A stretch of DNA of 40,136 bases from Candidatus Woesebacteria bacterium GW2011_GWB1_39_12 (GTDB taxonomy: Bacteria; Patescibacteriota; Microgenomatia; UBA8517): the NCBI GenBank assembly GCA_000993405.1, contig LBWB01000016.1, forward strand, positions 1-40,136, read 5' to 3'. Position numbers and translations under genes: made by a program. This document shows positions 14,536 to 24,791 of this stretch, in pieces (position 1 is the stretch's first letter; each line of letters begins with the position of its first letter). The notes under the pieces were generated by a model. That model searched no databases. It was given only the letters and a program-made list of their open reading frames with translations, and was not told the origin of the DNA.

Positions 14536-14775
14536 ATGTGGAAATATAGAACTTGTTTATATTCTCATAAACGAAAAAAGCAACCTCGTTATTGGGTTAT
14601 AACTTGTAGATGTTGTAAAGAAAAATGGATTGTAAAAAGTAATCCTGTTGGGGAAATAGATAGACATTGTAATAATGGTTGGGGATTAAATCAAAATCAT
14701 AAAGAGCCATATATTACCCACGAAAAATGGATTTCTCCTAAAACGGATGAGCTTGGATTTTTCTTTACATTTTAA
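14536..14775 (+). CDS. Small Cys-rich early protein
   Basis: ORF 79 aa, ITCRCCKEKWIVKS; first early gene. Confidence 0.6.
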   Translation: MWKYRTCLYSHKRKKQPRYWVITCRCCKEKWIVKSNPVGEIDRHCNNGWGLNQNHKEPYITHEKWISPKTDELGFFFTF

Positions 14776-14784
14776 TAATAGAGG

Positions 14785-14811
14785 ACAAGCGGGAAATAAT
14801 TCCCGTCTTGT
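14785..14811 (+). terminator. Hairpin, terminator or attenuator
   Basis: ACAAG c GGGAA ataa TTCCC gt CTTGT followed by TTAA. Confidence 0.5.
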
Positions 14812-14830
14812 TTAAGGTGTTAATAATCAG

Positions 14831-14862
14831 ATATCAACGAAGTATTTTTACTTGGTTGATAT
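14831..14862. promoter_or_regulatory. Long near-perfect inverted repeat
   Basis: ATATCAAC g AAGTA tttt TACTT g GTTGATAT, 13 bp with one mismatch. Confidence 0.6.
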
Positions 14863-14892
14863 TCGGTTATTATAAATTTATATTTTAATTAT

Positions 14893-15222
14893 ATGACCTA
14901 CTCTAAAACTGAGAGGGAACAATATAACGAGTATAGGTTGGCGGTTTGTGAAAAGTTATCAATTAGAGAGCTTGACTATAACGCTTTTAGGCGATTAGGT
15001 CAGAAGCTATGTAATATTTATGTTCAATCTTGTAATGGTGAGATTGACGAAATAGAGTACGAACAACAGGTAAGACCGTTATACATAAAAGCGGAGGCAT
15101 TAGCGAGACGCTTAAAACTTGAAATATATTTTCAGACTGACCCAAGAGGGAACACAATATATTTAAGCAAAGAAAAGATAGTAGATAATGACTATACACG
15201 AAATAGCATATCAATATATTAA
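14893..15222 (+). CDS. Early hypothetical protein
   Basis: ORF 109 aa. Confidence 0.65.
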   Translation: MTYSKTEREQYNEYRLAVCEKLSIRELDYNAFRRLGQKLCNIYVQSCNGEIDEIEYEQQVRPLYIKAEALARRLKLEIYFQTDPRGNTIYLSKEKIVDNDYTRNSISIY

Positions 15223-22212: not shown

Positions 22213-22620
22213 ATGAAAAAGTATCAAGTTACAAAAAAACAATGTCAAAAACATATAGACCAAGTAAATAATGTTTGTGATAGATGTGGTAGAAAAATTG
22301 TTCCTATAAAAACAGTTGATAATTCTCACAATCCTACTTATTGGGCTGGTTGTTTTCATGGAAGTAAAGATAAAGATGCTTTTGGTAATTTTACTTATGG
22401 AGTTCCAAAAGAAACATATAAATTAGCCTACAAGTTAGTTTTACAAGATAATTTATATTTAGGAATGAAAAAAGAAAAGGGTTCTGATTTTGAGTATTTA
22501 TTTCAAAATGGAGTTAGTAAAATTTGTGGAATACTTAATGATATTGAATACATAAAAAATAATAAACCAAGATACACAAAAACCCAATTAAGAAAAGATT
22601 ATATAAAATATTATAAATAA
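22213..22620 (+). CDS. Early zinc-binding protein
   Basis: ORF 135 aa, NVCDRCGRKIVPIKTVDNSHNPTYWAGCFHG. Confidence 0.6.
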   Translation: MKKYQVTKKQCQKHIDQVNNVCDRCGRKIVPIKTVDNSHNPTYWAGCFHGSKDKDAFGNFTYGVPKETYKLAYKLVLQDNLYLGMKKEKGSDFEYLFQNGVSKICGILNDIEYIKNNKPRYTKTQLRKDYIKYYK

Positions 22621-22662
22621 CCCCCTCACAAGGGTAGGGAACTTTGAAAATTAGAGGATTGA

Positions 22663-22733
22663 AAGCTGGGACATTAGGTGCTGAAGAGGTTATCAGGTTG
22701 CGAAGCATGATATTGCCCACTAAACCCCAGCTT
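22663..22733 (+). ncRNA. Structured intergenic RNA candidate of tRNA-like size
   Basis: AAGCTGG ... CCAGCTT closing stem, 71 nt, in a 160-bp non-coding gap. Confidence 0.4.
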
Positions 22734-22780
22734 TTAACCCTTTAATTAGTTAGGGAATTATAAATTAAAATATTTTAAGT

Positions 22781-23882: not shown

Positions 23883-24227
23883 ATGAAAAATAAAGAGAAA
23901 TGTAAACACCCGAAAATAGCAAGACACCCTTATGGATTTTGTAATAATTGTGGGAAAGAAATATCCAAAGAGAAACCCCAATTAGATTGGGAAGAAGACT
24001 TAATAATTTTAGGTTTAATGAACCTACAAAATAAAGATTGGAGAACTTATGAAGTTAAAAAGTTAATAAAATTTGTTAATTTATTGCTCCAAAAAACAAG
24101 GAGAAAAGTGGTGGAGGAAATAATTGGTAAACTAAAGAGACAAAGTTATTTATTTGGCCATAAGTGGCAGGTGCCTTCGAATAAAAGGTACACCGCCTAT
24201 TGTCCGAAATGTCAGAAAGTATGTTAA
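23883..24227 (+). CDS. Zinc-ribbon-containing early protein
   Basis: ORF 114 aa, CKHPKIARHPYGFCNNCGKE ... AYCPKCQKVC. Confidence 0.6.
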   Translation: MKNKEKCKHPKIARHPYGFCNNCGKEISKEKPQLDWEEDLIILGLMNLQNKDWRTYEVKKLIKFVNLLLQKTRRKVVEEIIGKLKRQSYLFGHKWQVPSNKRYTAYCPKCQKVC

Positions 24228-24307
24228 TACTTAAAGAAAAACTAAAATATATTATTTATGGAAGTTTGTTTGTTTTGTTAGGGTATATAATTGGAGGTTT
24301 ATGGTAG
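24221..24307 (+). CDS. Tiny membrane peptide, 28 aa
   Basis: MLILKEKLKYIIYGSLFVLLGYIIGGLW; overlaps the upstream stop. Confidence 0.4.
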   Translation: MLILKEKLKYIIYGSLFVLLGYIIGGLW

Positions 24308-24434
24308 TTTAGTATGTGAACAAGGGAAATACCCGCCAAAAGACAGTTGTGTAAAGTTTACCAACAGGTTGCTAATCCGAAGTCACCGAGAAAAGAATGG
24401 CGGAATGTACGTTCAAGTCGTACAGCTACCACCA
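24303..24434 (+). ncRNA. tRNA-like RNA with encoded CCA and a 59-nt anticodon-loop insertion
   Basis: Acceptor GGTAGTT/AGCTACC (7 bp, one G-U), T8 A9, D-stem GTAT/ATAC, anticodon stem CGCCA/TGGCG, T-arm GTACG-TTCAAGT-CGTAC, then A-CCA. Confidence 0.6.
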
Positions 24435-24650
24435 CGCTGAATAATCTGTGATAGTTCAGCAAGTACCAGAACTGAGGACTCTGGGTCTTATCTCCCGCTC
24501 TAGGGCTTTCCTTGGGGCGGATAAAAGTACATACACGGGAGTTCCGTGAAAGTACGATAGAGATGGAGTAAAATCCTACCTCTGGAGTACATTTCTAAAT
24601 TATAGATTGGCACAGATGCGATTTAGACACTTAACTCCCCGCCTTATTTA
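24435..24650 (+). ncRNA. Multi-hairpin structured RNA candidate downstream of the tRNA-like element
   Basis: GCTGAA...TTCAGC; CCAGA...TCTGG; CCGCTC...GGGCGG flanked by TTAT/ATAA; CACGG-gagtt-CCGTG; no credible ORF. Confidence 0.5.
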
Positions 24651-24653
24651 ATT

Positions 24654-24791
24654 ATGATTATATCTAATCCTTGCCCGATTTGTAGTTACCCCTTAAGAGA
24701 AAGTATAGGTTATCTAACATGCGAGAATTGTGGTAAAGTTATTTATAGAATTAACACCAAGAAGAAGAAAGTTAAAAGAATAGTAAACTGA
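24654..24791 (+). CDS. Zinc-ribbon protein, 45 aa
   Basis: MIISNPCPICSYPLRESIGYLTCENCGKVIYRINTKKKKVKRIVN. Confidence 0.55.
   Translation: MIISNPCPICSYPLRESIGYLTCENCGKVIYRINTKKKKVKRIVN

Follow-up and report, generated by a model that had tools for sequence, protein, structure and literature searches.

A tRNA-like element without an anticodon loop

What kind of RNA is encoded where a hairpin-bearing insert takes the place of the anticodon loop of a tRNA? The question is raised by positions 24303 to 24434 (+) of the window, as we call the whole 40 136-nt stretch of DNA analysed, which is contig C16 of a 1.51-Mb CPR/Patescibacteria MAG. Read from the sequence, the element can be drawn on the class-I tRNA plan throughout, the anticodon loop excepted. 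Its parts follow each other in this order:

24303–24309 (+): acceptor stem, 5′ strand GGTAGTT; 7 of 7 pairs with 24424–24430, one of them G-U; predicted pairing 0.93 in isolation
24310–24311 (+): linker T8 A9
24312–24332 (+): D-arm, 4-bp stem GTAT/ATAC with a 13-nt loop containing GGG; predicted pairing weak (0.15)
24334–24338 (+): anticodon stem, 5′ strand CGCCA, pairing with 24398–24402 (0.91 in isolation); the preceding C24333 adds one pair
24339–24397 (+): 59-nt insert replacing the anticodon loop, with hairpin A (24346–24365) and the weaker hairpin B (24367–24387)
24398–24402 (+): anticodon stem, 3′ strand TGGCG, in the predicted fold; G24403 adds one C-G pair
24403–24406 (+): variable loop GAAT, 4 nt, class I
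24407–24423 (+): T-arm GTACG-TTCAAGT-CGTAC, fitting TTCRANY; predicted pairing 0.23 in isolation, 0.5–0.99 in longer contexts
24424–24434 (+): acceptor stem, 3′ strand AGCTACC, followed by discriminator A73 and an encoded CCA

The coordinates and the list of parts given in the initial annotation (acceptor stem, T8/A9, D-stem, anticodon stem, T-arm and A-CCA) proved exact when the sequence was read again. The 59-nt insert with a hairpin of its own, also described there, is borne out by the sequence and by the predicted fold, in which hairpin A (GTTG-t-GTAA-agt-TTAC-CAAC) has pairing values of 0.98–0.99. The D-loop is 1 nt above the usual length, and position 26 is a C.

Two of the checks proposed with the initial annotation came out negative: ARAGORN reported 0 tRNAs in the window, and nothing in the window reached the Rfam thresholds. 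A sub-threshold match to the Rfam tRNA model (16.9 bits, cut-off 29) extends from 24367 to 24431. Its register differs from that of the element, and it takes another 5′ strand for its acceptor, in which there is a T-T mismatch. Since standard tRNA finders miss such elements, counts of tRNA-like elements may be too low, above all for CPR phages.

Probability of a chance arrangement

The frequency of accidental tRNA-like arrangements was estimated from simulated sequence with matching dinucleotide composition. A T-arm combined with a 7-bp acceptor stem within 65–200 nt is expected about 0.065 times per window. When CCA was included, 0 cases were found in 48 Mb of simulated sequence and 0 in 300 simulated windows; we estimate that this combination arises by chance about 7e-4 times per window. 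Taken alone, the T-arm, acceptor and CCA are not overwhelming for a scan over many windows.

Shuffled interiors were used for the remaining stems. Given T8A9, a D-stem and an anticodon stem at the canonical offsets had P = 8e-5 with Watson-Crick pairs and P = 1.4e-3 with G-U pairs permitted. The weight of the lower figure comes mostly from the G+C-rich anticodon stem, and the D-stem by itself is weak. Because the figures for the T-arm, acceptor and CCA combine with those for the D- and anticodon stems, it is unlikely that the whole tRNA-like layout arose by chance.

Cloverleaf and rod

Fold prediction revealed a competitor of the cloverleaf, in which the D region (GTATG/TGAAC) pairs with the T-arm (CGTAC/GTTCA):

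24312–24321 (+): 5′ side of the alternative rod, GTATG-TGAAC; pairs with 24419–24423 and 24411–24415, predicted 0.68–0.74 in isolation

These rod values, obtained with 24303–24434 folded in isolation, compare with 0.23 for the T-stem and 0.15 for the D-stem, and the energies of the two folds are close (MFE −32.5 versus −32.1 for the cloverleaf). The surrounding sequence shifts the predicted balance in both directions. Within 24250–24500 the T-stem has a pairing value of 0.74; within 24303–24645 it reaches 0.99, but the acceptor falls to 0.02 through long-range pairing. The folding z of the element alone is −2.0.

RNAfold takes no account of tRNA tertiary contacts, and T-stem values below 0.25 were also obtained for 16% of 45 host tRNAs. 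For these two reasons the predicted rod weakens the tRNA reading and does not remove it; overall, the tRNA fold is moderately supported. Should both folds exist, the RNA would act as a switch between them.

No excision yields a decoding tRNA

The initial annotation had noted the lack of a U33-like base and had proposed, as one reading, a tRNA with a mini-intron. The first statement held: in an enumeration of excisions leaving 7 nt, position 33 was always A, and no excision yielded U33 when the anticodon stem was shortened by one or two pairs. The second is disfavoured, because no splice choice gives U33 or a usable anticodon loop; on this ground the element does not qualify as a decoding tRNA carrying a mini-intron. 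In bacteria, the introns of tRNAs are group I ribozymes, whose length greatly exceeds 59 nt.

The sole anticodon-loop-like string in the insert is TTGCTAA (24369–24375), which is not flanked by a proper stem. Its reading as the anticodon loop of a class-II tRNA-Ser(GCU) was rejected: 2 of the 5 stem positions are mismatched, the discriminator is A73 rather than G73, and the CGCC/GGCG helix is left stranded.

Anticodon-independent charging was considered separately. The alanine rule does not fit, the element having U3-A70. Base −1 is T, so that G-1 is absent, and a long variable arm is lacking as well. Charging with leucine is conceivable because truncated variants of Escherichia coli tRNA-Leu, without anticodon and variable arms, stay active given A73 and the D/T-loop contacts (PMC9976931); by analogy, the element may be charged with leucine independently of an anticodon.

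Phage contig and host genome

The window contig belongs to a tailed phage and encodes a terminase, a portal protein, a major capsid protein, an exonuclease, a DnaD-like helicase loader and a Holliday-junction-type nuclease. By capsid, the closest deposited relatives are MW202566 (39%) and the TM7 phage MG269973 (38%); the portal and one further protein are similar too. No integrase was found among the phage proteins scanned (PHROGs).

The MAG carries about 60 tRNA genes and a tmRNA with the tag ANKSDYDFDYAYLS. With up to 3 mismatches allowed over 24 nt, nothing matching the T-arm and the acceptor 3′ strand was found elsewhere in the MAG; the element is therefore unlikely to be an attP scar for the MAG host, nor was it recently copied from one of the host tRNAs. 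The host 16S rRNA gene (L002:1500-3180, G000:C7) contains large A+T-rich insertions, of a kind known for CPR bacteria; together with the genome sizes of the relatives, mostly 0.5–1.5 Mb, this fits CPR/Patescibacteria.

A structured non-coding island

The element makes up the 5′ portion of an island (24308–24653) that is non-coding, structured and rich in G+C and that lies in a run or operon of small same-strand ORFs. The G+C content of the island is 0.40–0.51 versus 0.2–0.4 in the flanks; for the part after the CCA (24435–24645) it is 0.45, compared with 0.36 for the window. The element has these neighbours:

24221–24307 (+): possible 28-aa membrane ORF, putative from sequence, with its TAG stop inside the acceptor stem
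24435–24645 (+): structured non-coding stretch after the CCA, with hairpins 24436–24460, 24461–24489, 24495–24520, 24527–24555 and 24557–24584 and a 3′ stem
24654–24791 (+): 45-aa zinc-ribbon-like ORF with two CxxC motifs, the 3′ boundary of the island

For 24435–24584 the folding z was −4.3 and the MFE structure equalled the centroid. Within the window, the stretch downstream of the CCA ranks 20 of 1232 by z and 3 of 1232 by energy. These roughly 200 nt of structured RNA, the overlap of the 5′ end with an ORF stop and the competing rod fold had not been mentioned in the initial annotation. No promoter of note and no terminator was found for the element itself, so that the simplest presumed route is transcription as part of the operon, with tRNA enzymes then freeing the RNA.

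Other structured stretches were seen between genes of the window. At 22615–22764 (+) there is an intergenic structured RNA with a stem of about 12 bp (GAAAGCTGGG/CCCCAGCTTT), a z of −3.2 and no Rfam match. Structure is strongest in the window at 14756–14900, where two long, near-perfect hairpins (z −6.9 to −8.8) stand between small ORFs; a processing site or a terminator is a possible interpretation.

Search for relatives

A DNA search in 191 related genomes, mostly of 0.5–1.5 Mb, did not find a relative of the element. None was found in 50 697 phage or 72 556 plasmid records either; the phage matches, at E 4, were 25-nt chance matches. The covariance model R1, built from the element, was specific (171 bits versus 16 for a tRNA). 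When it was run over 384 genomes of the class, the best matches were a tRNA-Pro and coding or chance sequences, and no relative appeared. With no homologue found in these collections, the stems are read from this one sequence.

The phage proteins were used as a second entry. A search of genome contigs with the capsid protein gave no match. A search with a 3-row capsid alignment detected one contig, binned as Prevotella (L035, L036, L047, L048), in which no tRNA-like RNA with CCA was found. Relatives of the terminase (about 40% identity) carried only ordinary tRNAs and no comparable element. A 155-nt match in one terminase relative (L024) has no CCA and a different location, and was taken as chance. 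In MW202566 the gap upstream of the terminase holds ORFs rather than RNA.

The Prevotella bin contig, JAFTFC010000001.1, carries two copies of a TM7-like phage capsid gene, spaced at a 40-kb period. At L047:4105-4345 (+) it contains a promoter-like TTGACA-TACAAT, a structured RNA of about 200 nt (z −4.0) without CCA, and a terminator-like hairpin. This RNA sits upstream of terminase genes, the same place as the tRNA-like RNA of the TM7 phage described below.

Other tRNA-like RNAs in the TM7 phage and in the MAG

Beyond the window element, the CPR-associated finds comprise a tRNA-like RNA of the TM7 phage and several Y-RNA-like RNAs. The former is an unannotated 66-nt sequence of MG269973 (L033:8020-7955 (−), GGGCTAG...GTGGG-TTCAATT-CCCAC-CTAGTCC-ACCA). 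It scored 34.9 with the tmRNA model (cut-off 47, E 6.5e-12); it has G3:U70, lacks a D-stem and carries a 7-bp hairpin where the anticodon arm would be. The whole locus, L033:7855-8250 (−), starts with a promoter matching the consensus at 11 of 12 positions, followed by a domain of about 190 nt closed by 10 bp (GTACGGCCTG/CAGGCCGTAC) and then by the tRNA-like part. Because MG269973, a capsid-related CPR phage, has such an RNA, tRNA-like ncRNAs do occur in this phage group. In architecture it differs from the window element; the likeness is a tRNA-like end with CCA, and homology is not implied. It may be of attP origin. Matches of the covariance model R2, made for this RNA, were indistinguishable from ordinary tRNAs.

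On contig C15 of the same MAG, L105:1289-1406 (+) (G000:C15:11788-11905) is a YrlA-like Y RNA (RF02553, 40.3 bits, below the cut-off of 69, E 6e-8). It is a permuted tRNA mimic lying amid phage-like tRNA genes, and the contig also encodes TyrRS-like and PP-loop proteins. About 350 nt past it, at L105:1738-1846 (+), there is a tRNA body of normal order with an outer stem AAAAGGG/CCCCTTTT replacing the acceptor. The motif GATACTTCTAA flanks both loci, and their downstream strings are similar; judged by its sequence, the second is possibly a non-permuted Y-type RNA. Another permuted tRNA mimic, L106:1054-1186 (G000:C18), consists of a T-arm, a closed acceptor hairpin TTCCGCC/GGCGGAA and a D-like arm enclosed by a CAGTCGG/CCGATTG stem (z −3.4), with no YrlA match in Rfam.

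Interpretation of the element

We read the locus as that of a real structured RNA, which most probably includes a non-decoding tRNA-like domain. To the more specific reading, in which this domain belongs to an ncRNA of a CPR phage and is matured by the tRNA enzymes of the host, we give a slightly better than even chance. The element would be transcribed together with the operon of small genes. RNase P of the host would cleave before G24303, and the tRNA 3′-end enzymes would leave the CCA at 24434. The tRNA body could supply a defined, nuclease-resistant end, or could split upstream from downstream mRNA in the manner of tRNA punctuation. The insert hairpins, the downstream hairpins or both would carry the activity, most likely through protein or RNA binding.

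The tRNA mimic, one of the readings offered initially, is thus the best remaining one now that the mini-intron is disfavoured, with a fold that is moderately supported and has the rod as competitor. A processing tag, also suggested there, is compatible with a mimic, the element lying amid small same-strand ORFs with its 5′ end within a possible ORF stop. For a packaging tag no support was found. A bolder version, possible but on the doubtful side, is a natural ‘tRNA scaffold’: a hairpin module would replace the anticodon loop of a host-matured tRNA body joined to the structured RNA of about 200 nt, perhaps acting as a cloverleaf/rod switch by virtue of the complementarity between D region and T-arm.

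The same ends could instead form, in a structured RNA that is equally real, one long imperfect hairpin made of the acceptor stem, GTATG/CGTAC and TGAAC/GTTCA, the T-loop and CCA being coincidental. The isolated pairing values speak for this and the energies are nearly equal. It demands, however, that a consensus T-loop on a 5-bp stem adjoining the acceptor strand and ACCA all arose by chance, it comes from a program blind to tertiary contacts, and the T-arm is preferred in some longer contexts; we consider it unlikely. That the element is a tRNA gene inactivated by the insertion and now functionless would agree with its single copy, the lack of relatives, the sub-threshold Rfam score and the missing anticodon. 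However, all stems are intact, which is unexpected under decay, and the insert folds, is bordered exactly by the intact anticodon stem and lies within a structured island, so that such degeneration seems quite improbable.

The remaining rivals have far less in their favour. The insert does occupy the usual position of tRNA introns, and a decoding tRNA might lose a short intron by some other route; with no U33 from any 7-nt excision, and with TTGCTAA accompanied by stem mismatches and A73, this is very improbable. An attP scar, for which the 3′ end of a tRNA or tmRNA of the host would have been copied to serve integration, would account for some of the parts, as such scars keep the T-arm, the acceptor strand and the CCA, all present here. 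It would leave the matching 5′ acceptor strand and the anticodon stem unexplained; taking the MAG as host, there is no match within the mismatch limit given above, nor an integrase among the phage ORFs scanned, and we regard this origin as scarcely credible.

Comparison with known systems

The non-decoding tRNA-like domain resembles tmRNA (SsrA, RF00023) in having a tRNA-like acceptor and T-arm that end in CCA, the anticodon arm being replaced by a large insert. It differs in having a drawable D-stem, an insert of 59 nt versus about 300, and U3-A70, the alanine determinant G3:U70 being absent. RF00023 did not match the element at the gathering score, and none was reported at E 10 in the clan-best listing. 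Inspection by eye of the three frames of the insert revealed no tag reading frame ending in a typical tag.

A tRNA-like domain has also been noted in YrlA, a bacterial and phage Y RNA (RF02553; PMC7790460), likewise a non-decoding RNA, in which a module unrelated to tRNA occupies the anticodon position of the tRNA body. The arms of YrlA are circularly permuted, running from the T-arm through a closed acceptor hairpin to the D-arm, and the Y stem forms its end, whereas the element has the normal order and ends at the acceptor. RF02553 did not match the element, a permuted-tRNA descriptor found nothing in the window, and no Ro60/TROVE match was obtained among the subset of window ORFs submitted to Pfam.

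The mascRNA and menRNA (PMC11693755) share with the element a tRNA-like domain with no usable anticodon and processing by RNase P and the tRNA 3′ enzyme, which for the element is presumed. They are eukaryotic, have no 59-nt insert and have their CCA added, whereas the CCA of the element is encoded. GOLLD and ROOL (PMC12286853) are large, structured ncRNAs of phages that contain tRNAs or lie close to them. They differ in length (600–800+ nt) and have Rfam models of their own, which did not match in the window. In engineered ‘tRNA scaffold’ RNAs, a tRNA that is left intact elsewhere has a structured insert in place of its anticodon loop; these RNAs are artificial.

The element resembles the known tRNA-like ncRNAs in plan and lacks defining features tested for tmRNA, YrlA, GOLLD/ROOL and decoding tRNAs. 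Among the known tRNA-like ncRNAs, tmRNA, Y RNAs and mascRNA each have a plan of their own. If the proposed reading is true, normal tRNA order combined with a structured insert at the anticodon loop constitutes a further plan, and the phage would be a virus that exploits the tRNA maturation of its host to produce an ncRNA.
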